DNA of 64,000 bases. It comes from Verrucomicrobiaceae bacterium (GTDB taxonomy: Bacteria; Verrucomicrobiota; Verrucomicrobiia; Verrucomicrobiales; Akkermansiaceae). A program made the translations under genes and the position numbers. The notes below the pieces were generated by a model, which saw only the letters and a program-made list of their open reading frames with translations, had not been told where the DNA came from and searched no databases. The stretch's first letter is position 1. Each line of letters begins with the position of its first letter. Of the stretch, positions 3,649-61,030 are shown in pieces. The DNA is taken from positions 62,001 through 126,000 of the forward strand of contig JAIXWR010000010.1 of the NCBI GenBank assembly GCA_027491155.1. Reading direction: 5' to 3'.

Positions 3649-3676
3649 GCGCAACTTGCAAAGTTGCGCTACTTCG
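3649..3676 (-). repeat. REP-like palindrome (type A) at the arsC stop codon
   Basis: On the minus strand the sequence reads GAAGTAG followed by a perfect palindrome, GCGCAACTT-TGC-AAGTTGCGC (3649-3669). The TAG of the repeat head is the stop codon of arsC. A close copy sits at the stop of the DUF2891 gene near 54556 and a reversed relative near 54640. It could fold as an RNA hairpin between arsC and arsD. The rest of the 221-bp arsC-arsD gap holds no gene I can support. Confidence 0.75.
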
Positions 3677-4097
3677 CGTCGCGGCGGCCGGCGGCGTAGG
3701 CTTCGAAGACCTTGCGGATCTCGTCGCGGACGCGGCGGAAGACGGCCATCTGTTCGTCTTCGCTGCCGGTGGCGTGGGCGGGGTCGTCGAAGCCCCAGTG
3801 GTGGCGGTTGAGCTGACCGGGGAAGATCGGGCATGCTTGGTCGGCGTTGCCGCAGACGGTGATGACGGTTTCGACGTCCTGCGACAGGAACTCGTCCATG
3901 TGTTTCGAGTGATGCGCGGAGATATCGATGCCGATCTCGGCCAGGGCCTTGATGGCGAGCGGGTGGACGTAGCCGGCGGGTTTGGAGCCGGCGCTCTGGA
4001 CATCGAGCAGGTCGCCTGCGGCGGCACGCAGGATGCCTTCGGCCATGTGGGAACGGCAGGAGTTGCCGGTGCAAAGGATGAGGATGGTGGGCTTCAT
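3669..4097 (-). CDS. arsC: Arsenate reductase, thioredoxin-coupled (LMW phosphatase type)
   Basis: A 142-residue enzyme that reduces arsenate to arsenite so it can be exported. It belongs to the low-molecular-weight tyrosine phosphatase fold, with the P-loop CTGNSCR (C9-x5-R15) and the redox pair C82 and C89 in [10 protein letters not shown], the same positions as in the Staphylococcus aureus enzyme that uses thioredoxin. The [13 protein letters not shown] segment near residue 98 is the family's second signature and carries the general-acid aspartate. The ATG start lies 21 bp after the aquaporin stop. The TAG stop is part of a REP-like palindrome that extends into the arsC-arsD gap, which may lower expression of the downstream genes. 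Confidence 0.94.
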
Positions 4098-4118
4098 GAA
4101 GTGGAAAGCAAGCAGGGA

Positions 4119-4781
4119 TCAGTGGCTGGAATGAGATGAAGTGGGGCCGCGGAGGGCGTGGGAGAGGGGGACGGCGAGGAGGGCTCCGAGGACGGTGGCG
4201 GCGGGGTAGAGCCAGAGGTGCTGGAGGTGGCCGCTGACGATCGCCGGGGCGAGGGAGCGGGCGGGATTCATCGAGGCACCGCAGACCGGGCCGGCGAACA
4301 TGGCTTCGAGGCCGACGGTCGCGCCGATCGCGATGCCGGCGGTGATGCCCTTTTCCTTGGCGCCGGTGGAGACGCCGAGGATGACCAGCATCAGGATCGC
4401 GGTGAGGACGACTTCGAGGACGAAGCTCTGGCTGGCGCTGCCGGCGGGCAGGGTGGCACCCAGGGTCCCGGGGCCGGGGAAGAGGAACTTGAGCAGGCCG
4501 CTGGCGGCGAAGGCACCGGCGAGCTGGGCTCCGAGATAGAGCGGGATTTCTTTCCACGGGAAGCGTCCGGCCGCGGCGAATGCGATCGAGACCGCGGGAT
4601 TCAAGTGTGCGCCGCTGATGTCGCCGAAGGTGTAGATCATCGCGAGGACGACCAGGCCGAAGGTCAGCGCAATGCCGGAGTGGCCGATGACGCCGCCCGA
4701 GTGCTGGTTGATCACGATCGCCCCGGTCCCTGCGAAGACGAGGATGAAGGTTCCGAGGAATTCCGCGAGGGGGCGTCTCAT
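4119..4781 (-). CDS. Aquaporin / glycerol facilitator (AqpS-like)
   Basis: A 220-residue membrane channel of the MIP family. Six hydrophobic segments are visible and both half-helix NPA boxes are intact: GAHLNPAVS near residue 60 and GASMNPARS near residue 170. Aquaglyceroporins conduct uncharged arsenite; in Sinorhizobium meliloti an aquaporin (AqpS) replaces the efflux pump in an ars operon, letting arsenite made by ArsC leave down its gradient (established precedent). Here it lies between DUF6428 and arsC, 3 bp after the former, in an operon that also has ACR3-ArsA, so the cell has both a passive and an active route. Substrate is inferred from context; water, glycerol or methylated arsenicals are alternatives. 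Confidence 0.88.
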   Translation of the reverse strand: MRRPLAEFLGTFILVFAGTGAIVINQHSGGVIGHSGIALTFGLVVLAMIYTFGDISGAHLNPAVSIAFAAAGRFPWKEIPLYLGAQLAGAFAASGLLKFLFPGPGTLGATLPAGSASQSFVLEVVLTAILMLVILGVSTGAKEKGITAGIAIGATVGLEAMFAGPVCGASMNPARSLAPAIVSGHLQHLWLYPAATVLGALLAVPLSHALRGPTSSHSSH

Positions 4782-4784
4782 GGT

Positions 4785-5264
4785 CTAACAGCAACCGGTG
4801 GGGCCGCAGCAGGGGTTCTTGCCGCCGATGGCGGGCAGGCGGTTGAGGGAGGAGAGTCCGCAGAGCTCGGGGGCGAGGCATTCGGTGTGCTTGTGGGCGA
4901 GTTGGAGGACGACGGCGTCGGCGGTCACCTCGTGACCGGCGATGGTGTATTGGGAAATCACGCGGTCCTCGTATTCGATTTCCACCGGGATGGACTCGTC
5001 GGGGAGGTAGGCCTTTGCCTTGTCGAGGATGGAGGCCATCTTGCCCGTCTCGATGCGGTGGTCGTAATCCTCGCCGACCCAGATCTGGAGCTGGCAGGTG
5101 AGGGACTCGCGGAGCGTGCCGCCGCAGTCGAGGAAGGTCTTCTGTACGCGGCCGACTTCGGTGACGTGGAAGGAGACGGGGACCGCCGCGCCGTCGGGGA
5201 GCTGGATGCGGAAGTGGCGGTCGGAGTGCTCGCGGAGCAGGGATTTGAGTTCGGAGAGGTTCAT
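4785..5264 (-). CDS. DUF6428 family protein with Cys-rich tail
   Basis: A 159-residue cytosolic protein whose family is recurrently found next to arsR in Verrucomicrobia, Bacteroidetes and Proteobacteria; its biochemical role is unknown. It starts MNLSELKSLL and has alternating strands and helices with no membrane segment. The C-terminus, NPCCGPTGCC, contains two vicinal cysteine pairs, a plausible arsenite-binding tail. The ATG at 5264 overlaps the arsR stop as ATGA; the frame is open upstream but that part is a shadow of arsR. The stop codon TAG lies in TGTTAGA, 3 bp before the aquaporin start. A role in binding, sensing or handing over As(III) is inference only. Confidence 0.8.
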   Translation of the reverse strand: MNLSELKSLLREHSDRHFRIQLPDGAAVPVSFHVTEVGRVQKTFLDCGGTLRESLTCQLQIWVGEDYDHRIETGKMASILDKAKAYLPDESIPVEIEYEDRVISQYTIAGHEVTADAVVLQLAHKHTECLAPELCGLSSLNRLPAIGGKNPCCGPTGCC

Positions 5265-5641
5265 GAGGTGGCTTTGGCTTTGCGCCGGGTGGCGAGTTGT
5301 TTGGGGCCGGGGCAGCAGGAGTTCTCGCGCTTGGAAAGTCGTTTGGCGGCGTTGGCGCGGTCTTCCGGGTGGAGTCCATCGCCGGCGAAGTGCTTGGCGA
5401 TGGTGCGGACCAGCGGCAGGTGCTGGCGGGTGATGCGGAAGTAGGTCCACTTCTCGCATTTCTCGCTGTCGAGAAGCCCGGCCTTGCGGATGACCTGGAC
5501 GTGGCTGGAGACCGAGGACTGCGGCATCCCGAGGATGTCGGCGAGTTCGCAGACGCAGAGTGCGTCGTCCATCACCAGCCGGACGATCCGCCAACGGGTG
5601 GGATCAGCGAGGGCTCGGGTGAACGTGACGGGGTTGGTCAT
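5261..5641 (-). CDS. arsR: ArsR family arsenical-responsive repressor
   Basis: A 126-residue winged-helix repressor at the head of the ars operon. The helix-turn-helix covers about residues 25-70 (LADILGMPQSSVSSHVQVIRKAGLL). C29 and C31 lie in ALCVCEL, matching the CVC arsenite site at the start of the DNA-recognition region in E. coli-type ArsR, so metalloid binding should release DNA. Two more cysteines at 109-110 (ENSCCPG) could add a ligand, as in the variants that use a C-terminal pair. The ATG is followed by the usual family start, MTNPVTFTRALADPTR. It is expected to bind the palindrome directly upstream and to repress its own operon. Confidence 0.94.
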   Translation of the reverse strand: MTNPVTFTRALADPTRWRIVRLVMDDALCVCELADILGMPQSSVSSHVQVIRKAGLLDSEKCEKWTYFRITRQHLPLVRTIAKHFAGDGLHPEDRANAAKRLSKRENSCCPGPKQLATRRKAKATS

Positions 5642-5642
5642 G

Positions 5643-5679
5643 ACGATATTTATCGTTACGAGGAATTGCGGTGTGGCAA
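5643..5679 (-). promoter_or_regulatory. ars operator palindrome and likely promoter
   Basis: A perfect inverted repeat, ACGATA-AA-TATCGT on the minus strand (5643-5656), ends one base before the arsR ATG. It is one of the few AT-rich patches in the region and probably contains the -10 element; a candidate -35 (TTGCCA) is at 5674-5679. If so, transcription would start at or next to the ATG, making the arsR message nearly leaderless, and bound ArsR would sit over the promoter. The palindrome is directly visible; the promoter assignment is inference. Confidence 0.6.
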
Positions 5680-5710
5680 GGGGAATCTTGGTGGCGGTTG
5701 GAACTTCCGG

Positions 5711-5785
5711 TGTAGTGGGCCGCGGACTTTAGCCCGCTCGAGAGCGCCGACCTTCCAAGCGGACTAAAGTCCGCGGTCCAGTAGA
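5711..5785. repeat. Long palindrome (type C) between arsR and the kinase gene
   Basis: Two perfect 13-base arms, CCGCGGACTTTAG at 5720-5732 and its complement at 5764-5776, enclose a 31-base loop. The outer parts carry TGTAGTGG and CAGTAGAC, resembling the TGTAG heads of the other palindromes in this window. It fills most of the gap between arsR and the end of the histidine kinase gene and could form a hairpin in the RNA. No gene is present in 5642-5816. Confidence 0.7.
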
Positions 5786-5816
5786 CGCTTCGGTCTGTAA
5801 CAGCGCTTCGGTTCTG

Positions 5817-7232
5817 TCAGCCGCGGGGCAGGATCACGCGGAAGGTGGTGCCGGTGGCGCTCTCGACCTCGATCTTCCCGCCGTGGTTCTCGACGATGGT
5901 CTTTGCGATGGCCAGTCCGAGACCGGTGTGGCCGCTGGCCTGGCCGCGGGCGGTGTCGGCGCGGTAGAAGCGGTCGAAGAGGCGGGGCAGGTGCTCGGAG
6001 GGAATGCCGGGGCCGTTGTCGCGCACCTCGAGGATCACGGAAGCTCCGGTGACGGTCGTCTTGAGAAGCACCTTGCTGCCGGAGGGCGGGTGCACGATGG
6101 CGTTGGAGAGCAGGTTCTGGACGACCATCGCGAGCGAATGCGGGTCGCCATGAAGGAATGCCGGGGAAAGCTCGCGGTGAATGGCGATCGAATGCTCGTC
6201 GGCCAGCGGTTGGAGGAGGTCGGCGACGCCGCCGGCGATCTCCGCGAGGTCGCAGGGGACGGGATCGGTCCCCGATGCAGGGAGATCCTGGCGGGCCAGG
6301 ACGAGGAGCGACTCGACGAGCGCGCGCATCCTCTCGGCGGCGCTGCGGCAGTTGGCGAGGATCTCGCGGTATTGATCCGGTTCGCGCTCGCGCTTCAAGC
6401 CGCGCTGGGTTTCGGAGAGGATGATGGTGACCGGGGTGCGCAGCTCGTGGGAGGCGTCGGCGGTAAAGCGCTTCTGGCGTTCGATGGCGGCGGCGAGCCG
6501 GTCGAAGGTTTCGTTGAGCACGCCGCCGAGTTGGTCGAGTTCGTTGTCGGTGCGGGCGAGTTCGATCCGCTCGTCGAGGTTGCCGGCGGCGATGCGCGAC
6601 GCGGTGCGGCCGATGGTGTCGATCGGCTTGAGCGCGCGTCCGGCAAGCCACCAGCCGCCGCCCAGGCCCGCGGTCCAGACCGCGGCACCACCGAGGGCGA
6701 GCAGCAGCGCGAAGTTGCGCAGCTCGGATTGCTCGGCGGAGATGTCGCGACCGATGATGGAGCTCATTCCCGACGGATTGACCCGGTGGTGTTCCCGGCG
6801 GTGGTCACGTTCGACGTATTGGGTCGATCCGTCGCCGGCTTGCCTTGGCGGAACGAGGTCGTCCGGGGCATTGGCCGAGATGAAGAGCCGCGATCCATCG
6901 CTGTCCCAGCAAGCGAGGAAAGTGCCGCCTCCGCCGTCTTCGAAGAGGGCGTGGAGTTCGGGCGGGAACGCGGAAACGTCGCCCGGATTGCGGAGGCGCT
7001 GGCGGATCTCGTCCAGGCTGGGCAGCTCGTTCTTGTCGGGCAGCGGTTGCGAGGCGAAGAGGCTGCGGAAGAAGGTGCTTTGGAAGCTGCGGATCTCGCG
7101 GTCGATCTGGCTGGTCCGGTCGTCCGACGCGAGGCGGAAGGCCAGCAGGCAGAGCCCGGTGATCAGGGCGAGCAGGATGAGCGCATACCAGAGAAGAAGG
7201 CGCCAGCGTACCGAGCGGAAGAAGGGCTTCAT
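5817..7232 (-). CDS. Sensor histidine kinase
   Basis: A 471-residue inner-membrane kinase partnered with the response regulator that precedes it. Order of parts: membrane helix about 10-31, periplasmic sensor about 32-170, second helix about 173-198, HAMP about 199-250, HisKA with the phospho-accepting H262 in DASHELRTP, and a HATPase domain with N-box (NLLSNAIVH, near 377), G1 (DNGPGIP) and G2 (GLGLAIAK). The sensor is short and acidic/basic mixed, with an EHHR/ERDHRREH cluster around 140-150 that could bind a metal or cationic ligand. Its start overlaps the regulator stop by ATGA. Location after an efflux pump suggests it controls that pump; the signal is unknown. Confidence 0.93.
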   Translation of the reverse strand: MKPFFRSVRWRLLLWYALILLALITGLCLLAFRLASDDRTSQIDREIRSFQSTFFRSLFASQPLPDKNELPSLDEIRQRLRNPGDVSAFPPELHALFEDGGGGTFLACWDSDGSRLFISANAPDDLVPPRQAGDGSTQYVERDHRREHHRVNPSGMSSIIGRDISAEQSELRNFALLLALGGAAVWTAGLGGGWWLAGRALKPIDTIGRTASRIAAGNLDERIELARTDNELDQLGGVLNETFDRLAAAIERQKRFTADASHELRTPVTIILSETQRGLKREREPDQYREILANCRSAAERMRALVESLLVLARQDLPASGTDPVPCDLAEIAGGVADLLQPLADEHSIAIHRELSPAFLHGDPHSLAMVVQNLLSNAIVHPPSGSKVLLKTTVTGASVILEVRDNGPGIPSEHLPRLFDRFYRADTARGQASGHTGLGLAIAKTIVENHGGKIEVESATGTTFRVILPRG

Positions 7233-7879
7233 TCGATCGAGTAGCCGTGGCCGCGGCGGGTGGAGATGAAGGAGGGTCCCAGCTTCTTCCGGATGTTGGA
7301 AACGTGGACGTCGAGGAGGTTGGAAAGCGTGTCGTCGCTTTCGTCGAAAAGGTGATCGTAGAGCTCGGTGCGGCTGACGACGCTGCCGCGGTGGAGGGCG
7401 AGGTATTCGACGAGTGCGTATTCGCGTGGTGTCAGAGGGATCGCCTCGCCTTCGCGGCGGACCGTGCGCGCCGCGGTGTCGATTTCCACGCCTTCGATCT
7501 CCAGCAGGTTCGAGCCCCGGCCGGAGCTGCGGCGGATCAAGGCGCGGAGACGGGCGAGCAGTTCGTCGAAGTCGAAGGGCTTGGTCAGGTAGTCGTCGGC
7601 CCCGGCGTCGAGGCCGCGGATCCGGTCGGGCACCGCATCGCGGGCGGTGAGCATCAGGACCGGTGTCGGTTTCTCATGGCGGAGGCGGCGCAGCAGCTCC
7701 CAGCCGTCGAGGCCGGGCAGCATGCCGTCGAGCACGATCCCGTCGTAGCCCGTGGCGAGTGCCTTGAGGAGCCCTTCGTGGCCATCCGCCGCCGAGTCGA
7801 CCGCGTAGAGTTCCTCCCGCAGTCCTTCGCAAAGGCTGTGGCGGAGCAGCGGGTCGTCTTCGATGACGAGGAGGCGCAT
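7229..7879 (-). CDS. OmpR/PhoB-type response regulator
   Basis: A 216-residue DNA-binding regulator. The receiver domain (1-115) has the acidic pocket (E7, D8, D9), the phospho-acceptor D51 in IVLDGMLPGLDG and the conserved K in LTKPFD. The winged helix (about 125-216) ends in the typical VHVSNIRKKLG and STRRGHGYSIE. The ATG at 7879 gives the standard MRLLVIEDD start; an open stretch upstream is not conserved. It overlaps the kinase gene by ATGA and follows the transporter permease by 96 bp, with an inverted repeat in the gap. It likely binds upstream of the outer-membrane-factor gene, about 4.7 kb upstream, but no operator was identified. Confidence 0.94.
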   Translation of the reverse strand: MRLLVIEDDPLLRHSLCEGLREELYAVDSAADGHEGLLKALATGYDGIVLDGMLPGLDGWELLRRLRHEKPTPVLMLTARDAVPDRIRGLDAGADDYLTKPFDFDELLARLRALIRRSSGRGSNLLEIEGVEIDTAARTVRREGEAIPLTPREYALVEYLALHRGSVVSRTELYDHLFDESDDTLSNLLDVHVSNIRKKLGPSFISTRRGHGYSIE

Positions 7880-7903
7880 GGTGGAGAAGTTGAGAGTCTG
7901 GAG

Positions 7904-7953
7904 TTGATGGTGGATGGTTGGAAGGCGCAGGGTCTTTGGCTGTTCACCATCAA
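7904..7953. repeat. Inverted repeat upstream of the response regulator
   Basis: TTGATGGTG at 7904-7912 and its complement CACCATCAA at 7945-7953 flank a 32-base spacer; further TTGATAG/GATGG-like words surround the arms. It lies in the 96-bp gap between the permease and regulator genes and may be a transcript hairpin or a regulator site. Confidence 0.5.
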
Positions 7954-7975
7954 CTATCAACCATAGTCCATCGAC

Positions 7976-9181
7976 TCATTCGTGCCGCAAGGCATCGATG
8001 GGATCGAGGCTGGCGGCGCGGCGGGCGGGCATGAAGCCGAAAAGGATGCCGATGGCGGCGGAGAAGACGAAGGCGATGCCGTTGATCTTCGGGTCGAAGA
8101 GGAAGGGCGCGCCGACCAGCTTGGCGAGCCACACGCAGAGCCCGTAGGCGAGGGCGATGCCGCAGAGGCCGCCGACGCAGGACAAGGTGACGGCTTCGAC
8201 CAGGAACTGGAGCATCACCTCGCGGGCGCGGGCACCGATGGCCATGCGGATGCCGATCTCGCGGGTGCGCTCGGTGACGGAGACCAGCATGATGTTCATG
8301 ATGCCGATGCCGCCGACCAGCAGGCTCACGCCGGCCACGGCGGCGAGCAGGGAAGTCATCACCTTGGTGCTGGAGCTGACCGCATCGGCGATTTGGCGGC
8401 TGTCGAAGGCGGAGAAGTTGTTCTGCTCGCTGCGCGACAGGTTGCGGCGCTCCCGCATCAGCGAGTTGAGGTCGGCGACCACGGCCTCGCTCGGGTAATC
8501 GTCCTCGGTCGAGACCATGATCTGCCCGAGGTTCTGCTTCGAAAGCTGGCCGTTGAGGCGGCGCTGGAGCGTCGTGATGGGGATGATGATGTTGTCGTCG
8601 AGGTCGTCGCCCCAGCCGGCCTGGCCTTTGGCGACGGTGACTCCGATCACGGTCACGGCGGTGTTGAGGAGACGGATCTTGCGGCCGATGGGGTCGCCGT
8701 TTGGAAAGAGTTCCTTGCGGATGGTCTCGCCGATCACCGCGACCGTGGAACCGTCGATCACCTCGGTGTCGTCGAAGAAGCGGCCGTCGGAGAGTTCCCA
8801 GTTGGCGATCGGGAAGTAATCGGGCGTGGTGCCCTGGATGTCGGTAAGCCTTGCCTCCTCGCCGGAGATGGCCTGGACGCTGGTCATGGCCATGGGTGCG
8901 ACCGCGCGGATGCCGGGGATCTGCTTCCGGATCACCTCGACATCGTCCATGCTGAAGAGCGGCGCGGCGCTCGGACCCCAGCCCTGGCCGGGGCGGAGGG
9001 TGAGCAGGTTGCTGCCGACTTTCTCGATCTGCGCTTTGACGGACTCCGTCGCGCCGCGGCCGAGGGTGACGAGGGTGACCACCGCCGCCACCCCGATCAC
9101 CACGCCGATCACGGTGAGGAAGGCGCGCGTGAGGTTCCGCCGGATTTCCCGGAGGGCGATGATGAAGGCGTTCCAGAACAT
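7976..9181 (-). CDS. MacB-like ABC transporter permease
   Basis: A 401-residue mechanotransmission-type permease. One membrane helix near residues 17-38 is followed by a large periplasmic MacB_PCD domain (about 40-250) and three C-terminal helices (about 280-395), with the FtsX signature region GIGIMNIMLVSVTERTREIG. The ATPase is encoded separately, unlike E. coli MacB where it is fused. It lies 6 bp after the ATPase gene and belongs with the membrane-fusion protein and outer-membrane factor upstream. Such systems push periplasmic substrates (macrolides, peptides, siderophores, lipids) through a TolC-like duct; the substrate here cannot be read from sequence. Confidence 0.93.
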   Translation of the reverse strand: MFWNAFIIALREIRRNLTRAFLTVIGVVIGVAAVVTLVTLGRGATESVKAQIEKVGSNLLTLRPGQGWGPSAAPLFSMDDVEVIRKQIPGIRAVAPMAMTSVQAISGEEARLTDIQGTTPDYFPIANWELSDGRFFDDTEVIDGSTVAVIGETIRKELFPNGDPIGRKIRLLNTAVTVIGVTVAKGQAGWGDDLDDNIIIPITTLQRRLNGQLSKQNLGQIMVSTEDDYPSEAVVADLNSLMRERRNLSRSEQNNFSAFDSRQIADAVSSSTKVMTSLLAAVAGVSLLVGGIGIMNIMLVSVTERTREIGIRMAIGARAREVMLQFLVEAVTLSCVGGLCGIALAYGLCVWLAKLVGAPFLFDPKINGIAFVFSAAIGILFGFMPARRAASLDPIDALRHE

Positions 9182-9187
9182 CGTCGG

Positions 9188-9898
9188 TCAGTGGGTGGGC
9201 GTGTTGCGGCGCGGGTTGGCGACATCGGATCCGATCAGGCCGTCGCGGACGTGGATGATGCGCTTGGCATAGCGGGCGACCTCGTCCTCGTGGGTGACCA
9301 TGATGACCGTGATGCCGAGGTCCTCATTGAGGCGGCAGAGCAGATCCATCACCTCGCCGGTGGTCCTCGTATCGAGGTTGCCGGTCGGTTCGTCGGCGAA
9401 GAGCGTGCCGGGGTTGGTGACGATGGCGCGGGCGATGGCGACGCGCTGCTGCTGGCCGCCGGAGAGTTCCGAGGGAGTGTTCCTTTCCTTGTCGGGGAGG
9501 CCGACGCTGGCGAGCGCCTTGCGTGCGAGGTCGTGGCGCTGCTTCCGCGAGTAGCCGCGGTAGAGCAGGGGAAGCTCCACGTTTTCCAACGCCGATGTCC
9601 GCGCGAGCAGGTTGAAGCCCTGGAAGATGAATCCGAGGGCGTGGCGGCGGAGCAGGGAGCGCTGGTCCTTGTTGAGGCTTTCCACCGCGATCCCGTCGAA
9701 GCGGTAGCTGCCGCTGGTCGGGGTGTCGAGGCAGCCGAGGAGATTCATCAAGGTCGACTTGCCCGAACCGCTCGGCCCCATGACCGCGATGAACTCGCCG
9801 CGGCCGATGTCCATGTCGACCCCGCGCAGCGCCTTGAAGGCGGCGTCGCCGCGGCCGTAGGTTTTGGTCAGGTCGCGCAGTTCGATGAGGGAACTCAT
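9188..9898 (-). CDS. MacB-type ABC transporter ATPase
   Basis: A 236-residue ATPase of the LolD/MacB class. Walker A GPSGSGKST (about residue 40), Q-loop FQGFNLLA, signature LSGGQQQR, Walker B LFADEPTGNLD and the H-loop THED are all intact. The start chosen is the ATG at 9898, overlapping the end of the membrane-fusion gene by ATGA; upstream open sequence is an out-of-frame shadow. It powers the permease encoded 6 bp downstream. Confidence 0.95.
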   Translation of the reverse strand: MSSLIELRDLTKTYGRGDAAFKALRGVDMDIGRGEFIAVMGPSGSGKSTLMNLLGCLDTPTSGSYRFDGIAVESLNKDQRSLLRRHALGFIFQGFNLLARTSALENVELPLLYRGYSRKQRHDLARKALASVGLPDKERNTPSELSGGQQQRVAIARAIVTNPGTLFADEPTGNLDTRTTGEVMDLLCRLNEDLGITVIMVTHEDEVARYAKRIIHVRDGLIGSDVANPRRNTPTH

Positions 9899-11199: not shown

Positions 11200-11210
11200 G
11201 CGGGTGGGAT

Positions 11211-12611: not shown

Positions 12612-12680
12612 GGGGCGAGGCTGGCACGGGGCACCTTTAGGAAAGATGAAGACGGGGGAGATTCGGGCTGCGGGGCAAAG

Positions 12681-12710
12681 CAAAAGGCCGCTCCCGGCGG
12701 GGAGCGGCCT
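12681..12710 (-). terminator. Rho-independent terminator of the DEAD-box gene
   Basis: On the minus strand an 11-base arm AGGCCGCTCCC (12700-12710) pairs with GGGAGCGGCCT (12685-12695) around a short loop and is followed by TTTTG. It lies 18 bp past the helicase stop codon and separates that gene from the efflux operon. Confidence 0.85.
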
Positions 12711-12727
12711 CGTGAATGGAACGGCTG

Positions 12728-14026: not shown

Positions 14027-14131
14027 TTCGGTAAGTGCCGGCCCGCGCGGAATCCCGGCGGCTGGCGGTGTCGATGAGGCTGTCAGGAGATCCCCGAACC
14101 ATCTCTCATCGATGAAGACCGGAAAAGGGCT

Positions 14132-14169
14132 GGAGCCGGTCGATCGGCTCCGCACGGTCCGAAAGACCG
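14132..14169 (-). promoter_or_regulatory. Two hairpins in the leader of the helicase gene
   Basis: Upstream of the helicase ATG, the minus strand contains CGGTC-TTTCG-GACCG (14155-14169) and then GGAGCCG-ATCGAC-CGGCTCC (14132-14151), 106 bp before the start codon. The 14027-14290 interval holds no gene I can support and looks like a long 5' leader. Autoregulatory leaders are known for several bacterial DEAD-box genes; a role here is inference. Confidence 0.45.
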
Positions 14170-50701: not shown

Positions 50702-50719
50702 TCCCGACAAGAGGCGGCT

Positions 50720-50860: not shown

Positions 50861-50888
50861 CGCGTCGGGGATGCGGTTGATCCTGAGC

Positions 50889-52088: not shown

Positions 52089-52210
52089 CGAGGTTCCGCG
52101 AAAATAGGGGGCATCCGCGACCTGTCAAACGGGAGCTTTGGAGAGGAAACCCATCGATCCCCGGTCTTCCAATCATCAATCGGAGCGGTCGACGAAGCCG
52201 GGATTGCCAA

Positions 52211-52218
52211 AAGGAGGG
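52211..52218 (+). promoter_or_regulatory. Strong Shine-Dalgarno of rsmH
   Basis: AAGGAGGG lies 10 bp before the ATG at 52229 and fixes that start. It stands out because most genes in this window lack a recognisable Shine-Dalgarno. Confidence 0.75.
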
Positions 52219-52228
52219 CTGCGGGACC

Positions 52229-53269: not shown

Positions 53270-53298
53270 CTCCTCCGGGAGCGCCGTTCCTTCCGGGC

Positions 53299-53317
53299 CT
53301 TCGTAGCTTTAGCGAAG
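53299..53317. repeat. Short palindrome between rsmH and DUF2891
   Basis: CTTCG-TAGCTTTAG-CGAAG followed by TAGGC forms a small inverted repeat with the CGAAGTAG word shared with the type A palindromes. It sits in the 203-bp rsmH-DUF2891 gap, which also has CGCATCGCCGACGGGTGAAC and further GC-rich repeats but no gene. Confidence 0.5.
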
Positions 53318-53472
53318 TAGGCAGGCCGGCAGAGCGGTCCCCAGGATACCGCAGCCCTTTCAAGGCCGCATCGCCGACGGGTGAACCTTCCGTGCTTCTG
53401 CGGGGCAGAGCCTCCGCGCCCCCAGTGAAGATCCTGCTTCTCGTGGGCATTTCACTTGGCTTTCCTCACAGC

Positions 53473-54558
53473 ATGCTCCGCCTGATTCGTTCAGCCTTTC
53501 TTGCCGCGCTTGCGGTGGCCTCTTCCTTCGGTCAGGAAAAGCCCATGACCGAAGAGCAGGCGGCGGGCTTTGTGAAACTTGCGTTGGCAGGGATCGACCG
53601 CGAGTATCCGAACAAGACCGGCCACGTCACCACCGGTCCGGAGAACCTGAGATCGCCGCGGGCGATGCACCCCGTTTTTTACGGGCACTTCGACTGGCAC
53701 TCGTCGGTTCACGGCCACTGGATGCTGCTGCGCCTCATGAAGCTTTTCCCCGAGGCCCCGTTCGCCGGCGAGGTGCGTGGTATCCTCAAGCAACGACTGA
53801 CGGTCGAGGGACTGGCGGCTGAAGCGGCTTATTTCAAGACCAAGGAGAACCGCAGTTTCGAGCGGATGTATGGCTGGGCCTGGGCGCTGCGACTGGCGCT
53901 GGAACTCCGGACCTGGGACGATCCCGACGGCCGCGAATGGGCGAAGGATTTCCAGCCGCTGGAGAAACAGATCACCGGGCTCGCCAAGGACTACCTGCCG
54001 AAGCTCGATTGGCCGGTGCGCTGCGGCTTCCACCCGGAGACGGCCTTTCCGCTGGGGCAGATGCTCGACTACGCAAGGGGGACCGGCGACCGGGAGTTCG
54101 AGTCGTTGCTGTTAGAGAAGGCGCGGGCCTTCTACGGAAAGGACCGGAACTACCCGACGGCCTACGAGCCCTCGGGCAACGACTTCTTCTCGCCCGGCTT
54201 GAATGCCGCCGACCTGATGCGGCGGGTGCTGCCGGCGGAGGAGTTCGGGCGCTGGCTGGAAGCCTACTTCCCGGAGCTGTCGGCGGGAAAGGCGGGCAAC
54301 CTGCTGACACCGGTGACCGTGAGCGATCCGACGGACGGTCACTTGATCCACCTCGCCGGACTGAACCTGACGCGGGCGTGGACGATGCGGGGAATCGCGT
54401 CGGTTTTGGCGGAGGGGGACGCGCGGAAGAAGGTGCTGCTGGATGCCGCGGCGAAGCACGCCGACGCGGGGCTCGGGCTCGTGGCGACCGGGCACTATGA
54501 AGGAGATCATTGGCTGGGCTCCTTCGCGGTGTATTTGCTGAGCGGAAGCGGGAAGTAG
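53473..54558 (+). CDS. DUF2891 family protein, exported
   Basis: A 361-residue protein with an N-terminal signal peptide (MLRLIRSAFLAALAVASSFG). DUF2891 hallmarks are HPVFYGHFDWHSSVHGHW near residue 65, MYGWAWALRLALEL, and GNDFFSPGLNAADLM; the pattern suggests an alpha-toroid fold like glycoside hydrolases or lyases with His/Asp/Trp in the centre. The activity is unknown. The ATG at 53473 is selected for its signal peptide; upstream open sequence belongs to rsmH in another frame. The stop TAG is part of a REP-like repeat. One of the rare TTA codons occurs at 54112. Confidence 0.88.
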   Translation: MLRLIRSAFLAALAVASSFGQEKPMTEEQAAGFVKLALAGIDREYPNKTGHVTTGPENLRSPRAMHPVFYGHFDWHSSVHGHWMLLRLMKLFPEAPFAGEVRGILKQRLTVEGLAAEAAYFKTKENRSFERMYGWAWALRLALELRTWDDPDGREWAKDFQPLEKQITGLAKDYLPKLDWPVRCGFHPETAFPLGQMLDYARGTGDREFESLLLEKARAFYGKDRNYPTAYEPSGNDFFSPGLNAADLMRRVLPAEEFGRWLEAYFPELSAGKAGNLLTPVTVSDPTDGHLIHLAGLNLTRAWTMRGIASVLAEGDARKKVLLDAAAKHADAGLGLVATGHYEGDHWLGSFAVYLLSGSGK

Positions 54559-54667
54559 CGCGACTTTGCAAGTTGCGCGGGGTGCGGCGGACTGCTCCCG
54601 GGGCTGCGAGGCTTCAGGGCGTGGCGACCCGTGCACCCGCACAACGTGCAACGTCGTGCTACTTCGC
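54553..54667. repeat. REPIN-like pair of type A palindromes
   Basis: GAAGTAG then GCGCGACTT-TGC-AAGTTGCGC (54558-54578) and, reversed, GCACAACGT-GCA-ACGTCGTGC then TACTTCG (54639-54666). The two units face each other over a 60-bp spacer, the arrangement of REPIN elements. The TAG of the first unit (54556-54558) is the stop codon of the DUF2891 gene. The unit at the arsC stop is a near copy of the first. Confidence 0.7.
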
Positions 54668-54720
54668 GGTCGCGACTTCTTTGCTTTTCCATCGCACCTG
54701 TCCCGCGTCACCGTCCCGCC

Positions 54721-56508
54721 GTGCCCGCCGTCACGAACATCTCCTGCTACCGCTTCGCCCGGATGGACGGGCTCAAGGTCCTTCGCGAAGAGCTGATCGT
54801 CTTTTGCAAGCAGCGCGCCTTGAAGGGGACCATCCTGCTCGCGCCGGAAGGGATCAACCTCTTCGTCGCCGGCAGCGCGGAGGGGATCGAGGAGCTGTTA
54901 GGCGTGTTGCGCGTCCTGCCGGGACTGGATGGCCTCGCGCCGAAGTACAGCCTCAGCGACGAGCAGCCTTTCTCCCGGATGCTGGTGCGGTTGAAGAAGG
55001 AGATCATCGCGTTCGGGGTCGAGGGCATCGATCCCGCCGCCTACACCTCGCCGCGGATCGAGGCGCGGACGCTCAAGCAATGGCTCGATGAAGGAAAGCC
55101 GGTCATCCTTTACGACACCCGCAACGATTACGAGGTGAAGCTCGGCACTTTCCGCAACGCGATTCCCGCGGGCATCGACCACTTCCGTTACTTTCCGGCG
55201 GCGGTGGCGGCCTTGCCGGAGGAGATGAAGGTTGCGCCGGTGGTGACCTTCTGCACCGGCGGGATCCGCTGCGAGAAAGCCGCGCCGTTCATGGAGCGGG
55301 CCGGCTTCCGCGAGGTCTATCAGCTTGAGGGCGGCATCCTGAAGTACTTCGAGGAAGTCGGCGGCGATCACTACGACGGCGAGTGCTTCGTCTTCGACCA
55401 GCGGGTCGGCGTCGATCCCGCCCTGCGCGAGACCGGCTCGGCGGTGTGCTTCGTGTGCCAGGCCCCTCTAACCGCCGAGGAGCAGGAAGACCCGCGACAC
55501 GTGCCGGAGGTATCTTGCCCGCATTGCTACCGCTCGGACGCGGAGAAGATGTCGGAGCGGATCGCGCGGCGGCAGGATGCGTTGGAGCGGGTGACCGATC
55601 CCTTGCCGGGCAGCGTTCCCTACGAGAACCGCCGGCCTGTGCGGGTGCCTGAATGGCTCGACGGGAAGACCATTCTCGAGGTGCTGGAGGGCTTGTTTCC
55701 GCAGTTGCCGCGGGAGCAGTGGATGGAGCATTTCTCGGCGGGCAACGTGCTGGATCCGCGCGGTGCTGTGGCACTGCCGGAGCAGCCGACGCGGGCCGGG
55801 GAAGAGTGGACGCGGGTGTTTCCCGGGACCATCGAGCCGGAGGTGAACGCGGCGATCGAGGTGCTCTATGAGGACGAAGCAATCATCGTCCTCAACAAAC
55901 CCGCACCGCTGCCGATGCATGCCTGCGGGCGATTCAACCGGAACACGCTGGTGCATTTCCTCCACGCGGCGTGGCATCCCGAGAAGCCGAAGCCGGCGCA
56001 TCGCTTGGACGCGAATACCAGCGGCGTGGTGGTCTGCGCGCGGACGCGCCATTTCGCGAAGCTCTTGCAGCCGCAGTTCACGCGGGGCGAGGTGGAGAAG
56101 GTTTATCTGGCGCGGGTTCACGGGCATCCGGCGCAGGATGAATTCAAGATCGACGCGCCGATTTCCGATGAACCGACGCGGCTCGGTGCGCGGGAGATCG
56201 AGGAGGAAGGTCAAGAGGCGGTGACGGTGTTCCGGGTGCTGCGACGGGATGCCGACGGGACCTCGCTGTTAGAAGCACGGCCCCTCACAGGCCGGACCAA
56301 CCAGATCCGGATCCACCTGTGGCACGCGGGATTTCCGATCACGGGAGATCCGGTGTATTTGCCGGAGGGGAAGCGCGGGGATACGCAGACTTTGGGCGTG
56401 GGGGATCCGCCGATGGGCTTGCATGCGTGGAGGCTGTCGTTCCGGCATCCGCTGAGCGGGGAGAAGCTGAGCTTCGAGGCGGAGGTGCCGGAGTGGGTGA
56501 AAATGTAG
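54721..56508 (+). CDS. TrhO-type rhodanese tRNA hydroxylase fused to RluA pseudouridine synthase
   Basis: A 595-residue two-enzyme protein. N-terminal half (about 1-300): UPF0176/TrhO, which hydroxylates U34 of tRNA, with [11 protein letters not shown] near residue 36, the rhodanese active-site loop [11 protein letters not shown] (Cys near 178) and a C-terminal zinc-like CxxC/CPHC region ([15 protein letters not shown]). C-terminal half (about 330-595): RluA-family pseudouridine synthase with motif [14 protein letters not shown] holding the catalytic Asp and [18 protein letters not shown] at 54721 begins [12 protein letters not shown], matching the family; upstream open sequence lies in the repeat. 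The TAG stop opens a type B palindrome. Fusing two tRNA/rRNA uridine modifiers is uncommon. Confidence 0.9.
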
Positions 56509-56634
56509 CGGCGGTCTGCGACCGCCGGTGACTGTAATGTAGCACGGGGTGGTCCACCCGGCAGTGAAAGGTAAAGAACGGCATGGATGGTTGCTTCGTT
56601 TACAGAGTGCGGCGGTCATAGACGCGGCCGCTAC
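56504..56634. repeat. Cluster of type B palindromes between convergent genes
   Basis: Three related units. B1: ATGTAG then GGCGGTC-TGC-GACCGCC (56510-56526). B2: TGTAGCACGGGGTGGTCCACCCG (from 56539). B3, reversed: TTGTAGCGGCCGCGTCTATGACCGCC (56612-56636 on the minus strand). The TAG in B1 is the stop codon of the TrhO-RluA gene; the TAG in B3 is the stop codon of the HAD gene. No gene is present here. Confidence 0.7.
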
Positions 56635-57290
56635 AAGTCGAGAAGCTCCCGCAGGTCGCGGATCACCTGATCAGCCCCGCAGTCATCGAGGCTTCTCCCA
56701 CGGAGGCGGAGGGACTTCGGATCCCCGGCGAAGAGGGCGGTGCGGAAACCGGTGGCGCGGGCGGGGTCGATGTCGTTGCGGACGTCGTTGCCCACGTAGA
56801 GAACCTCTGCGGCGGGGATGCCACGCCGGGCGAGCTCGTCGCGGAGGACTTCGAAGAGCCAGGGGTCGGGTTTTGCCCGACGCTCGAGGTAAGAAAGGCA
56901 GCAGAGTTCCGGATCGATCCCGAGGTCTGTTAGAGTGGCGCCGAGGGCCTCCTCGAGGACCGGCACGGTGTAAAACTGGGCGTTGGAGATCAGGCCGAGC
57001 GGGATGCCTTTCGCCGCGAGGCGGCGGAGGGTTTCGGCGGCACCGGGCATCGGGGTGACGGGGTTCGCCTTCTTCTCGTGAGCGATGGCGAGGGCCTCGA
57101 TTTCATCGGGCGCGAGCTCCGGGTGGAGTGCGGCGTGGATCTCGCGGATGTCGATTTCCGGGAAGGGATGGGGCGAGGCGGCGTGGGCCTTGGCGATGAG
57201 GTCACGGAGTGAAGGGTCGGGGTGGAGTTCTCCCGCGGCGGAACTCAGCAAGGTGCCGTAGATATCGAAAAGAACGGCGCGCGGGCTCAC
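56631..57290 (-). CDS. HAD superfamily hydrolase with DxYGT motif
   Basis: A 219-residue cytosolic HAD protein. Motif I is FDIYGTLL (D-x-Y, not D-x-D), motif II LGLISNAQ, motif III the lysine in RAKPDPWLF, and motif IV GNDVRNDIDPA. In phosphatases of this fold the second Asp of motif I is the acid/base; a Tyr there is typical of haloacid-dehalogenase-like members, so phosphatase activity is doubtful although family members with DxYGT are poorly characterised. The GTG at 57290 overlaps the glycosyltransferase stop as GTGA. The stop TAG is in a type B palindrome. It is the last gene of a four-gene unit. Confidence 0.85.
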   Translation of the reverse strand: MSPRAVLFDIYGTLLSSAAGELHPDPSLRDLIAKAHAASPHPFPEIDIREIHAALHPELAPDEIEALAIAHEKKANPVTPMPGAAETLRRLAAKGIPLGLISNAQFYTVPVLEEALGATLTDLGIDPELCCLSYLERRAKPDPWLFEVLRDELARRGIPAAEVLYVGNDVRNDIDPARATGFRTALFAGDPKSLRLRGRSLDDCGADQVIRDLRELLDL

Positions 57291-58759
57291 GTCAGCAGGA
57301 AGTGGAAGGAGCCGGGCTTGAGGAAGCGGTTGAGAACCTTGTGCTTCGGAACGTAATCGGGGGCGACGGGCTTGGCGTTGATCAACGATGCGTAAAGACT
57401 GCTCAAGCGGGCGGTGTAGGCCTCGGTCGAGTAGGCGGCGAGGTCCCGCGGCTTGGCGGTCGGGGTGGTTTGCTTGAGCGTGCGGCATAGCCAGAGCCGG
57501 AGCGGCAGGGTTTCGGTGCGGCTTTCGACGAGGATCTCGTCGCCCTCACCGCCGGCCAGGATGCGGTGGATGACCTGGCGCTGGAGGTCTTCGGGCAGGT
57601 TGCCGAAGTCGAGGTGGCCGCGGTGGAGCATCGCGGCGAAGGACCGCTCGACGTGCTCGTTGGACATGACCTGCCCGTAAGTCTCGAGCGTCATCCGCAA
57701 GCTGCGGACCAGCCGCTGGCGCAAGGTCTCCATGCCGACCCAGGCGACCGGGACCAGCAGGCGGTCGTAGAGCCGGCCGGGGACGATGCCGGCTTCGGAG
57801 AAGTCGTTGGTGACGTTCGGCAGGTTGCGGCCGAGCAGCGGTTTGCCGATCATGGCGGGCTCGAGGAAGCCGAGGCCGAAACCTTCGGCGACAGAGGTGG
57901 TGAGGACATGGGTCGAGCATCTCAGCCAACTGGCATAGCTGCGCGATGCCCTCGGTGCGGGGGAAACCTTGCCGACGACGTCGAGCATCACCGGCAGTCC
58001 GGAGTCCTGGGCGAAGGCGGCCCATTCGTCGAAGACCGCCTGCCAGCGGATGTTATCCGGCGAGAGGGTGAGGGCGTAGCGGGTGCCTTTCGGCGACAGC
58101 GCGGCGAGCAGGAAGAGTTCGCCGAGGTTCTTGCGGCGGATCCCGCGGACCGGATAGAGGACCAGCGGGTGCTCGGGCGGCGTGTCGAGCGGCTTGACGG
58201 CGGCCGGCGGGGTGATGGCGTTCGGCAACAGGATCGAGCGCTCGGCGGGCAGCCCGGCGGCAAGGAAGAGCTGGCGGTCGTAGGAATTGAGGAAGGCCTG
58301 GCGGATCCGCGGGGAGTGCGGGTAGAGGGTTTCGGTGTCGGCGATGACCGGGTAGTTTTGCGGGCGGCCGTCCTCGGCGAAGTCGTGGAATTGCAGTACC
58401 ATCGCGTCGCCGGACTCGGCGAGGATCGCGACGGCATCGGCGATGGCCCGGTTGCGGCCGAGCGAGTGGTTGTGGAAATGCCAGACGATGGGGCCCGGGC
58501 CGAGCACGCTGGCGGCGGCGGCGCGCATTGCCTGGGAAAGCTGGAGGCCGGTGGGACCGCCGGGATCGGTGCCGTAGCGGAGGCCTTCGACGACCTGGAC
58601 CGGCAGGTGCGGGTCGCGCTCGTCCGGTTCGCCGCTCAGGATGACGTGGGGGATTCCCGCCGACTTCAGGCAGGCGGCGGCGGTGTGGATGACGCGCGTC
58701 ACCCCGCCGCGGTTGAGGTGGTAGTGGACGATGGCGACGGAGTAGGGAGCGGTCTTCAC
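57287..58759 (-). CDS. GT4-type glycosyltransferase
   Basis: A 490-residue GT-B enzyme. The N-terminal domain starts VKTAPYSVAIVHYHLNRGGVTRV with the glycine-rich HLxxGGVxRV loop; the C-terminal domain has EGFGLGFLE (the E-x7-E motif of retaining GT4 enzymes), followed by GKPLLGRNLPNVT. About 110 residues past the domain are extra (RRSMT-like, ending NRFLKPGSFHFLLT). The GTG at 58759 overlaps the GNAT stop as GTGA and its stop overlaps the HAD start the same way. Given the neighbouring GpgS-like gene, it may extend or modify a glucosylglycerate-type compound. Acceptor and donor are unknown. Confidence 0.85.
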   Translation of the reverse strand: MKTAPYSVAIVHYHLNRGGVTRVIHTAAACLKSAGIPHVILSGEPDERDPHLPVQVVEGLRYGTDPGGPTGLQLSQAMRAAAASVLGPGPIVWHFHNHSLGRNRAIADAVAILAESGDAMVLQFHDFAEDGRPQNYPVIADTETLYPHSPRIRQAFLNSYDRQLFLAAGLPAERSILLPNAITPPAAVKPLDTPPEHPLVLYPVRGIRRKNLGELFLLAALSPKGTRYALTLSPDNIRWQAVFDEWAAFAQDSGLPVMLDVVGKVSPAPRASRSYASWLRCSTHVLTTSVAEGFGLGFLEPAMIGKPLLGRNLPNVTNDFSEAGIVPGRLYDRLLVPVAWVGMETLRQRLVRSLRMTLETYGQVMSNEHVERSFAAMLHRGHLDFGNLPEDLQRQVIHRILAGGEGDEILVESRTETLPLRLWLCRTLKQTTPTAKPRDLAAYSTEAYTARLSSLYASLINAKPVAPDYVPKHKVLNRFLKPGSFHFLLT

Positions 58760-59202
58760 CGGTCGAGCGGGGCGAGGGGTTTGATGAAGTGGAAGCCGCG
58801 GATTTCGTAACCGAGGCGGTGGTAGAGCCGGTGCGAGGCGTGGTTCGATGTGTAACTGTCGAGCACCCCGATGTTGCAGTTTTCCTCGATCGCGAGGGCT
58901 TCGAGATGGCGCATCAGAGCAGAACCCAAGCCGGAGGAGCGGCGGGCGGAATCGACCACCAGATTGTCGATCTCCAGGTAGCGGCCGCACCAGATCTTTG
59001 TGGCGATCCAGACACCGGCGACCGCGGCGAGCTGGCCGTCCACGAAGGCGCCGAAGATCCGGTAGTGCGGGTGTTCGGCGAGGATGGTGGCGAAGCGCTG
59101 CGCGAGGACCGCCGGCGGGACATCGGGGTTTAGCTGCGCGAACAGGGCGTTCGCGGCGGGATGATCTTCGGCAGCGAGTTCGCGGATTTCCGGAGGGTTC
59201 AC
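58756..59202 (-). CDS. GNAT family N-acetyltransferase
   Basis: A 148-residue GCN5-type acyltransferase. The acetyl-CoA loop is SSGLGSALMRHLEALA (Q/RxxGxG/A form) and the C-terminal motif HRLYHRLGYEIRG is typical. EIDNLVVD is motif A's strand. It begins with GTG at 59202, overlapping the stop of the GpgS-like gene (GTGA), and ends overlapping the glycosyltransferase start. Its substrate is unknown; placement between two sugar enzymes suggests an amino sugar or an amine of the same product. Confidence 0.88.
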   Translation of the reverse strand: MNPPEIRELAAEDHPAANALFAQLNPDVPPAVLAQRFATILAEHPHYRIFGAFVDGQLAAVAGVWIATKIWCGRYLEIDNLVVDSARRSSGLGSALMRHLEALAIEENCNIGVLDSYTSNHASHRLYHRLGYEIRGFHFIKPLAPLDR

Positions 59203-60092
59203 GCCGGAAATCTAGCGCGGTCGGCGGCGGCAGGAAAGCGTTCGCGGTAGCCGGGCAGCGAAATCATCGGCGGGCGCTCCTCCGGCGCGATTCTGGCGGC
59301 TGGATAGCGAGCGAAGAACGCGTCGAGGATTTCCCCCGACATGCGCCCGAGCTGGGCGAGCGAGCGGTTGCGGTGGATCCGCTCGTCGAGGTCGGTCTGG
59401 GCAATGGCGGCGATCCCGCGGGTGCGGTGGACGTCTAACAGGTGGGCCGTTTCCACCCCGTATCCGGTCGGCATCGGCAGCGTCTCGAGGATCTCCCGCC
59501 GCGCCGCGTATTCTCCGGCCAGCGGTTGGTGGAGACCGGCGAGCTCGGGGCAGAAACGCTGGAACAACGGGCGGACGAGAATTTCGGTCACCCGGCCGCC
59601 GCCGCGGGGATCGACGCCTTCCGCGGCGAGCAGCGGGCGCTCGTAAAAGCCCTTCACGTAGCCGAGTTCCACGTGGCGGATCAGCGGGCCGACGGTGCCG
59701 TACACGAAGCGCGGGTGGATGTTGCCGATGTCTCCATCGACGAAACACAGGATGTCGCCGGTGAGGTGGTGGACGGCCTTCCACAGGTTCTCGCCCTTGC
59801 CGACCCGGTGACCTTGGAAGGGCAGGATGTCCGAGGCAAACACGACCTCCGCCCCGGCCTCTGCGGCAAGAGCGCGGGTGCGGTCGGTGGAACCGGAGTC
59901 AATGACCACCAGCTCGTCGAGCAGGCGGTGACGGTCGAAGAGCTCGGTATTTAGCACCGAAACGACGCGGGCGATGGTGCCTTCTTCGTTGAGGGTCGGA
60001 ATGCAGAGCGAGACCCGCAGGCCGGCCGCGTCCTTCGCCGCGACGAGGGCGGGAAGGTCGGCGAAGTCGAGGTGGTGGAAGCTGCGGAGCAT
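59199..60092 (-). CDS. Glucosyl-3-phosphoglycerate synthase-like glycosyltransferase (GT81)
   Basis: A 297-residue GT-A fold enzyme. Blocks shared with mycobacterial GpgS are SLCIPTLNEEGTI (nucleotide sugar), GKGENLWKA (donor/phosphate), FVDGDIGN with the DxD metal motif (D119, D121), and KGFYERPL. GpgS joins glucose to 3-phosphoglycerate, the first step of glucosylglycerate, a compatible solute, and of methylglucose lipopolysaccharide. The ATG at 60092 gives a slightly short but complete protein. It heads a GTGA-coupled unit with GNAT, GT4 and HAD genes and lies 6 bp after the Hsp33-like gene. Glucose as the sugar is by homology. Confidence 0.85.
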   Translation of the reverse strand: MLRSFHHLDFADLPALVAAKDAAGLRVSLCIPTLNEEGTIARVVSVLNTELFDRHRLLDELVVIDSGSTDRTRALAAEAGAEVVFASDILPFQGHRVGKGENLWKAVHHLTGDILCFVDGDIGNIHPRFVYGTVGPLIRHVELGYVKGFYERPLLAAEGVDPRGGGRVTEILVRPLFQRFCPELAGLHQPLAGEYAARREILETLPMPTGYGVETAHLLDVHRTRGIAAIAQTDLDERIHRNRSLAQLGRMSGEILDAFFARYPAARIAPEERPPMISLPGYRERFPAAADRARFPA

Positions 60093-60098
60093 GCCTGT

Positions 60099-60878
60099 TC
60101 AGATCATATCCCGCGTCACCTCATACCTCGCGGCGCAGCGCGGGCACTGGACGGTGATGACGTCGGAATCCTCGAAGAGGACGTCGGGCTTGTCGCGCCA
60201 GGAGCCGAGGACCGGCAGGATCTTCCCGAGATCGCAGCCGCAGTGGAAGCGGAAGCGGCGGGTCTCCAGCAGGCCGGTTTCCTCGGTTTCGAGAATGCGC
60301 TCGGCGGCCGCTGCATCGAGCCCGGCCAGCCATGCCTCGTCGCAGTCGGGCTGGGCGGTGACCAGCGAGAACAGTTCGTCGTCTTGGCGGAAGATCCGGG
60401 CGGGACGTTGCTCGGACTGGGTGTAATACTGCTCGACCCAATGGAGTGGGTCGCGGTCGTCGACCTCCAGCGTCGACATCCGCGGTTCGGCCTGGTGGTT
60501 GGTGGTGACTTGGGAGTAGAAGAAATTCCGGTCGGGCTCGCGAACATCCTCGGTGAAGAGCCGGCCGGTGACGGATTCCTGGAGCGAGCCGGCGGTCGCG
60601 AAGACATTCACCCGCGGGGCGCGGAGGTTCACCGTCCATGCGATGGTTTCCGCCCAGGGCCGGGCGACGGCGTGGAGGGTGATGGCGGCGAGGAAGTCCT
60701 TCAGCATCTGGTCCAGTTCCGCGGAGTGGCGGATGCCGTATTGCATCAGGTGCAGGTAGTAGTCGCAGTAGATCGGCGCGAACTTGGCCCGGAGCAGCAG
60801 GGCGTTGCGATGGCGGACGAAGATGGATTCGACCTTGATGAATTCTTCCTGGATCTCGACCTGTTCCGGCTCTGGCAC
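60099..60878 (-). CDS. hslO: Hsp33-like redox-regulated chaperone
   Basis: A 259-residue protein with an Hsp33-type fold. The C-terminal redox switch is complete: CGC (CxC) near residue 208 and CPRC near 240, separated by 29 residues as in Hsp33, holding zinc when reduced. The block YYTQSEQRPARIF is the conserved YyxQSeQ segment. It starts with GTG (60878), giving MPEPEQVEIQEEF; there is no earlier ATG. Hsp33 protects proteins under oxidative or chlorine stress. The N-terminal half is diverged from proteobacterial HslO, which explains why the name is used with some caution. Confidence 0.82.
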   Translation of the reverse strand: MPEPEQVEIQEEFIKVESIFVRHRNALLLRAKFAPIYCDYYLHLMQYGIRHSAELDQMLKDFLAAITLHAVARPWAETIAWTVNLRAPRVNVFATAGSLQESVTGRLFTEDVREPDRNFFYSQVTTNHQAEPRMSTLEVDDRDPLHWVEQYYTQSEQRPARIFRQDDELFSLVTAQPDCDEAWLAGLDAAAAERILETEETGLLETRRFRFHCGCDLGKILPVLGSWRDKPDVLFEDSDVITVQCPRCAARYEVTRDMI

Positions 60879-61007
60879 GGGGTGAGCGTAGGGGTATCAC
60901 GGGTTGGACGCCAAACCCGAAATTCCCGCTGGAGACCAAGCATTTGAGGGACGGATCACGGTTGCAGGAAATCCAGGCCCCGAAGGTCGATTCGCCAACA
61001 AAGTGCG

Positions 61008-61030
61008 ACGGTCGCAGACCAACGCTACAT
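61008..61030 (-). repeat. Type B palindrome after the methyltransferase gene
   Basis: On the minus strand ATGTAGCG-TT-GGTCTGCGACC (core palindrome 61010-61020) follows the methyltransferase TGA by 2 bp. The GGTCTGCGACC core is identical to that of unit B1 at the TrhO-RluA stop. The rest of 60879-61032 holds no gene I can support. Confidence 0.65.

Follow-up and report, generated by a model that had tools for sequence, protein, structure and literature searches.

GAAGTAG-headed palindromes at gene ends of an Akkermansiaceae genome probably settle behind stop codons that were already present

A stretch of 64,000 nucleotides from a Verrucomicrobiaceae bacterium (Akkermansiaceae; assembly GCA_027491155.1, contig JAIXWR010000010.1), called the window here, contains short palindromes of two families, types A and B, which in four places share a TAG with the stop codon of the preceding gene. 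Both are families of repetitive extragenic palindromes (REPs) with a GTAG head. Comparison of gene ends with and without a type A element indicates that these elements probably settle 3' of a GAAGTAG word that was there before them, and that the TAG in the head of the repeat is mostly the older stop codon of the gene itself. The genome of the window (G000) comprises 5.73 Mb in 46 contigs; G003, G004 and G006 to G010 denote genomes of relatives.

With at most three mismatches allowed, 27 copies of type A (GTAGCGCAACTTTGCAAGTTGCGC) and 34 copies of type B (GTAGCGGCGGTCTNNGACCGCCG) were found in G000, compared with 0 and 2 matches for the respective reversed-pattern controls. The initial annotation had read the palindromes as dispersed families of the REP type and had made this depend on there being further copies, and the genome-wide numbers bear it out. 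Whole-genome searches at the same threshold gave 87 type A copies in G006, 28 in G010, 12 in G004 and one in G003, and none in the 14 other relatives searched. In each family a perfect or near-perfect hairpin follows GTAG immediately on its 3' side, and each is present in many copies, as is characteristic of GTAG-tagged REPs. The copies are also mainly extragenic (4 of 35 type A matches in G000 were called intragenic) and often form inverted pairs. The type A pairs of G000 have their heads pointing outward, about 100-200 nt apart, and in three of them (L015, L021 and L027) both heads lie in the stop codons of convergent genes, one of these six heads reading TAA. Single units are about 25 nt long and the pair in the window about 110 nt, and no transposase gene lies inside the element. 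The right half of that pair (head at 54662, minus strand) is an addition to the list of the initial annotation; together with the copy at 54555 it resembles a bacterial interspersed mosaic element (BIME) or a REP doublet forming a hairpin (REPIN). Tandem arrays of type A were observed in G006, at 37134-37349 of contig C33 and 26229-26791 of contig C37, with periods of about 96 and 134 bp.

The four fusions of a stop codon with a repeat head that had been described in the window (arsC, DUF2891, TrhO-RluA and HAD genes) are at the places given for them. A home-made gene finder, for which the window and 40 stretches served as training data and which was used for gene ends in the window, put the ends of all four genes exactly at the repeat-head TAGs. 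The fifth copy, thought to begin 2 bp after a TGA, does lie close to a TGA stop, at the slightly larger distance given in Table 1. Among the GTAG-headed copies of G000 with at most three mismatches, the upstream gene ended in frame at the head TAG in 13/24 cases for type A and 3/33 for type B (Fisher p = 0.0003). The initial annotation had considered a systematic fusion to stop codons for both families. For type A, whose copies are associated with gene ends, the fusion is frequent; for type B it is not systematic, and a fused-stop rule was rejected. Many type B copies also sit within about 20 nt past a stop. When up to five mismatches and any head were allowed, 16/35 type A copies of G000 were fused, plus one with GTAA, and the relatives gave 16/32 (G010), 18/74 (G006), 2/19 (G004) and 0/1 (G003); these looser counts refer to copies in the fetched stretches, may include both orientations of one hairpin, and contain some G006 and G004 copies in tandem arrays.

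The initial annotation had suggested that orthologous 3' ends be compared with and without the element, and such a comparison was made. Genes of G000 were sought in 11 genomes of the same genus; for G006 and G010, 16 genes were sought in five genomes. Thirty-three genes with a type A element were put forward, 17 from G000 and 16 of the 19 listed from G006 and G010; two had no element-free orthologue that could be found and eight had no alignable end, leaving 23. Since the genes had been chosen for the head in their stop codon, only the state of the element-free copy is informative. The closest element-free end was taken from the orthologue nearest in the 51 nt upstream, and a more distant genome may have supplied it. 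As background, 507 element-free genes in the fetched stretches of 12 genomes were used, which may overlap with the genes compared; independence of the genes is assumed in the p-values. The closest element-free end had TAG in 13/23 genes against 85/507 in the background (p = 1.8e-5), and the last codon was AAG in 13/23 against 62/507 (p = 4.7e-7). GTAG was present at 11/23 ends (background 46/507), and the full GAAGTAG at 8 of the 23 empty ends (17/507; p = 5e-7). When five copies that by eye could be decayed elements were removed, the numbers were still above background, with TAG and AAG each at 9/18 (p = 0.0012 and 0.0001), GTAG at 7/18 (p = 0.00065) and GAAGTAG at 5/18 (p = 0.00025).

Individual genes illustrate this. 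A gene which by the look of its sequence we take to encode a polyphosphate kinase ends in CCGAAGTAG without an element in three of its eight element-free relatives, G003, G008 and G009, genomes that hold 1, 0 and 0 copies of type A; the other five have GAAATAG (two), GAAGTGA (two) or a different end (one). The DUF2891 gene of G006 has an empty GAAGTAG stop, directly behind which the downstream flank continues, and its flanks align on both sides with those of the window, the region being about 112 nt shorter for lack of the REP pair. Empty GAAGTAG ends were found as well in the genes labelled U32 and MT22 of G004 and S41 of G006; the FAD19 row of G006, which shows an early stop, was left uninterpreted (these four labels are presumed, again from the look of the sequences). 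Many orthologous proteins end at the same residue with or without the element, those of L057, L327 and arsC being exceptions. Identity at the three bases of the stop codon was 1.00, 0.74 and 0.52 for the type A genes, and of a similar degree (1.00, 0.78 and 0.44) for control genes having a GTAG stop and no element, of which 9/10 had an orthologue.

The distribution of the empty words in G000 was determined over about 331 kb of stretches, partly picked for having elements, and the numbers are small. Element-free GAAGTAG outside coding sequence lay at a stop in five cases and between genes in two, and the type A copies at GAAGTAG were divided 12 to 9 in the same order. For TGTAG, the word at the head of type B, 6 of 27 free occurrences were at stops and 21 intergenic, and the type B copies at this word were divided 3 to 28. 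In G000 the places where the two words are free thus correspond to those of the two families. Inside called genes, 48 GAAGTAG words were empty and three occupied. In G010 the occupied words were divided 13 to 11 and the free ones 3 to 2; as a whole, the relatives agree with G000 only in part. The proposal that insertion is targeted to gene ends receives indirect support here, as the data fit GAAGTAG as a landing word and, outside coding sequence, this word is mostly at gene ends in G000.

A candidate for the enzyme was found in two relatives. In G004 a gene for a REP-associated tyrosine transposase (RAYT) of the Y1 type, 214 amino acids long (L392), is flanked on both sides by inverted type A REPs, and G006 (L395) has a copy 88% identical to it in the same layout. 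In both, the last codon and stop of the RAYT gene, AAG TAG, are the head of the type A REP behind the gene. For the relatives, part of the Y1 matches were fetched. The RAYT gene which the initial annotation had proposed to look for therefore exists beside type A elements, although not, as far as could be found, in the window's own genome, whose 13 Y1_Tnp matches are at most 38-39% identical to the type A RAYT. No type B hairpin was listed beside the 10 of these 13 loci that were scanned. The strongest Y1 match, at 65492 of contig C3, was rejected as the type A RAYT, as it has different palindromes of its own (by eye) and is merely located beside a type A pair. A RAYT-like gene at 59740 of contig C5 was also rejected, being flanked on both sides by REPs of another sequence with GTGG heads, and the Y1 matches at contig ends on C5 and C3 did not match the type A RAYT. 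Two observations were made at these loci. At L011 3087-3900 (C3, about 65.3-66.1 kb) the type A pair has as its neighbour an IS200-like transposase gene that carries palindromes of its own. The GTGG-headed REPs (GTGGAGTGCCGCCTTGCAGGCGGCAT) make up a third family and lie at L003 979 (-) and 2053 (-), that is C5 about 59.2-60.3 kb, on both sides of the RAYT-like gene with both copies on the same strand.

These results are probably best explained by a mechanism in which types A and B would be short, non-autonomous DNA hairpins spread by RAYT transposases of the Y1, IS200/IS605-like kind. Type A would settle directly 3' of an existing GAAGTAG, or at least GTAG. Outside coding sequence this word would occur mainly at gene ends made of a lysine codon (AAG) and the amber stop (TAG), and for this reason the TAG of the repeat would mostly be the stop of the gene itself. 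Words inside genes may be unoccupied because insertion would destroy the gene, and type B would be mostly off stops because its word, TGTAG, is mostly found away from them. That the RAYT performs the insertion, the strand chemistry of this step, and a selection that removes intragenic inserts are what we infer. The more specific proposal, that a native GAAGTAG is the site immediately 3' of which REP pairs are inserted by the RAYT system, that lysine-amber ends act as safe harbours and that the RAYT gene retains a copy of the word for its last codon and stop, has in our judgement about an even chance of being right.

Several observations weigh against this mechanism. Among the eight readable element-free relatives of sucD (a ninth sequence runs off before the end), the gene ends in CAAGTAA in five, and in CAAATAA, CAAGTGA and CCAGTAG in one each, whereas it has GAAGTAG in the three filled genomes; head and stop differ in 7/8 empty relatives. 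The gene at L348 has GAGGTGA when empty and GAAGTAG when filled, with the flank resuming exactly past the stop. At L057 the filled protein is one residue longer (FPK* compared with FP* in G007), and at L327 it is three residues shorter (GAK* compared with GAKSPA* in G000); these two belong to the eight rows dropped before the count of 23. These four ends fit better with an element that brought the stop along. The DUF2891 gene of G010, the relative closest by protein, has TGA. At L014, where the head stands off the stop after a native TGA, GTAG was found at the position of the head in 0/7 element-free relatives; in G003 the stop of this gene is itself TAG. In G006 the type A copies at GAAGTAG are divided into 16 at stops and 33 between genes, with free words at 8 to 0, and this intergenic excess is not explained by availability; tandem or paired copies that bring their own head are a possible reason. 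GAA precedes GTAG in 59/91 off-stop copies, so the head also travels with the element; this is certain for the inner heads of pairs and for tandem arrays. Some of the empty GAAGTAG ends could be scars of excision. Finally, RAYT cleavage in vitro has been reported at CT beside the REP, for one enzyme also at CA, with GTAG as a guide and not as the target (PMC8266576; for this and the other papers cited, statements refer to the portions of text available).

Many of these points would be accommodated if GAAGTAG were simply cargo, short homology bringing the element to the 3' ends of genes, where its TAG would replace the native stop. The sucD, L348, L057 and L327 ends, the GAA in off-stop heads, the many heads off stops in G006 and the RAYT gene ending in the head itself all speak for this. 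On the other hand, where these genes lack the element, TAG, AAG and GAAGTAG are 3 to 10 times as frequent at their ends as in the background, and GAAGTAG closes the polyphosphate-kinase-like gene even where the genome contains no or a single type A copy; we regard the cargo alternative as rather doubtful. Likewise, the suggestion in the initial annotation that the elements replaced native stops does not hold as a rule, given that 13/23 element-free ends already have TAG, although it may do so for the four ends named. The likeliest picture combines both, the head being a guide carried by the element as well as the word at which it prefers to land. An origin of the fusions by chance or from annotation, with TAG-ending heads falling in frame from time to time, can draw on the fact that, of TAGs placed in frame at random, one in three will close an upstream frame. 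It is very improbable in view of the difference between types A and B, the recurrence of the fusion in G010 and G006, and the many orthologous proteins that share their end residue.

The REPs could also be kept for a function, the hairpin behind the stop stalling ribosomes, tuning translation or protecting the 3' end, with the TAG setting the distance. The hairpin does start directly past the stop, many type B copies are close behind one, and according to a secondary account (PMC12306157) translation in E. coli is reduced by REPs that lie no more than 15 nt from a stop. However, type B rarely shares the fusion to stops, and the sites are often empty in relatives, which makes this explanation quite unlikely. 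In folding calculations the two units at 54555-54664 form a single long hairpin of -67.6 kcal/mol (z -5.06), the foot of which takes in the stop codon, and single hairpins range from -9.9 to -16.1 kcal/mol (z -1.5 to -3.6), the copy at 3649 having -12.9 kcal/mol (z -1.52) and the type B hairpin at 56504..56527 -16.1 kcal/mol (z -3.64). A terminator scan of 54400-57000 found three candidates with 1.8 expected. In this region the type A copy at 54555 is not followed by a T run, and a plain terminator was therefore rejected for it; nor is there a T run at 56505 in the direction of TrhO-RluA. By eye, none follows the copy at 3649 either. Read on the minus strand (56527-56509), as the convergent HAD gene is, the type B stem is terminator-like and has the tail CTACATTTTC.

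The features of the window are collected in Table 1. Gene names in the window and that of sucD come from profile matches, and other gene names from the look of the sequence; no NCBIfam match was obtained for the DUF2891 gene.

Table 1. REP elements and adjoining genes in the window
Feature	Position	Strand	Remarks
Type A REP	3649..3675	-	Head GAAGTAG 3675-3669, then hairpin; TAG 3671-3669 is the arsC stop
arsC-like gene	3669..4097	-	Ends ...DAK*; arsenate reductase (thioredoxin type) match, under the model cut-off
DUF2891 gene	53425..54558	+	End is GGGAAGTAG; name taken from the initial annotation
Type A REP, left unit	54552..54578	+	Head GAAGTAG 54552-54558 overlaps the DUF2891 stop
Type A REP, right inverted unit	54639..54665	-	5 mismatches; pairs with the 54555 copy
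TrhO-RluA fusion gene	54736..56508	+	Stop TAG from type B head; start approximate
Type B REP	56504..56527	+	TGTAG head, then perfect hairpin
Divergent type B REP	56609..56635	-	At HAD gene end; TAG 56633-56631
HAD-family hydrolase gene	56631..57290	-	Matches under the models' cut-offs; ends in type B head
Type B REP, fifth copy	61006..61029	-	3 mismatches; TGTAG starts 3 nt past TGA stop
Gene upstream of fifth copy	61033..61821	-	Weak similarity to adenine-specific DNA methyltransferases; stop TGA

The gene at 54736-56508, for which the gene finder chose a start at 54631, joins a TrhO tRNA hydroxylase and an RluA pseudouridine synthase in one reading frame. The best-matching named records for its protein are from Luteolibacter, Haloferula and Akkermansiaceae genomes, and relatives of the fusion are present in many records of Verrucomicrobia and Planctomycetes. 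Directly behind the type B copy at its end, at 56539-56561, lies another GTAG-headed palindrome (GTAGCACGGGGTGGTCCACCCGG), which is partly conserved in L103. A variant of type B, GTAGCGGC..CGTCTAYGACCGCCGCAC, recurs at 56635-56609 (-) of the window, L033 2624 (-) and L039 about 2420 (+), these copies likewise being at or near TAG stops.

In the literature, the spread of REPs is described as unresolved or poorly understood. Here, close relatives show the empty sites and the apparent target has seven letters, which makes the question of the target testable. A landing word would explain why GTAG REPs so frequently provide stop codons without any selection for a 3' function; the reading of GAAGTAG as such a word is the new, moderately supported part of our work.

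Elements of the IS200/IS605 group insert 3' of a short target word that they do not carry along. Type A resembles them in its proposed insertion 3' of a short word, and differs in lacking an internal transposase, in the length of the word (4-7 nt) and in that GTAG is also proposed as a guide; the guide and target logic of that group is given in PMC6006769. That REP heads often provide TAG stops is already in print, the termini of GTAG REPs having been described as supplying the stop of flanking open reading frames, and Opitutus terrae, a member of the Verrucomicrobia, as rich in such REPs (Di Nocera et al. 2013, PMC3733652). No comparison of filled with empty gene ends was found for GTAG REPs in the open literature, subscription papers being mostly outside this coverage. 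Types A and B are new members of this known kind of REP, and they share with the GTAG-tagged superfamily (PMC3733652) the GTAG head, the short stem-loop, the many copies, the inverted pairs, the location between convergent or co-directed genes and the occurrence in Verrucomicrobia; unlike it, the type A head extends to GAAGTAG, and the stop is often older, to judge from element-free ends. The inverted REP pair of about 110 nt that folds into one hairpin is like the REPINs of Bertels and Rainey (2011, PMC3116915). As in RAYT/REPtron systems (Nunvar 2010, PMC2817692; Corneloup 2021, PMC8266576), the Y1 gene lies between inverted REPs of its family, but its stop codon is inside the head of its own 3' REP; REPs near RAYT stops or directly behind them have been described.

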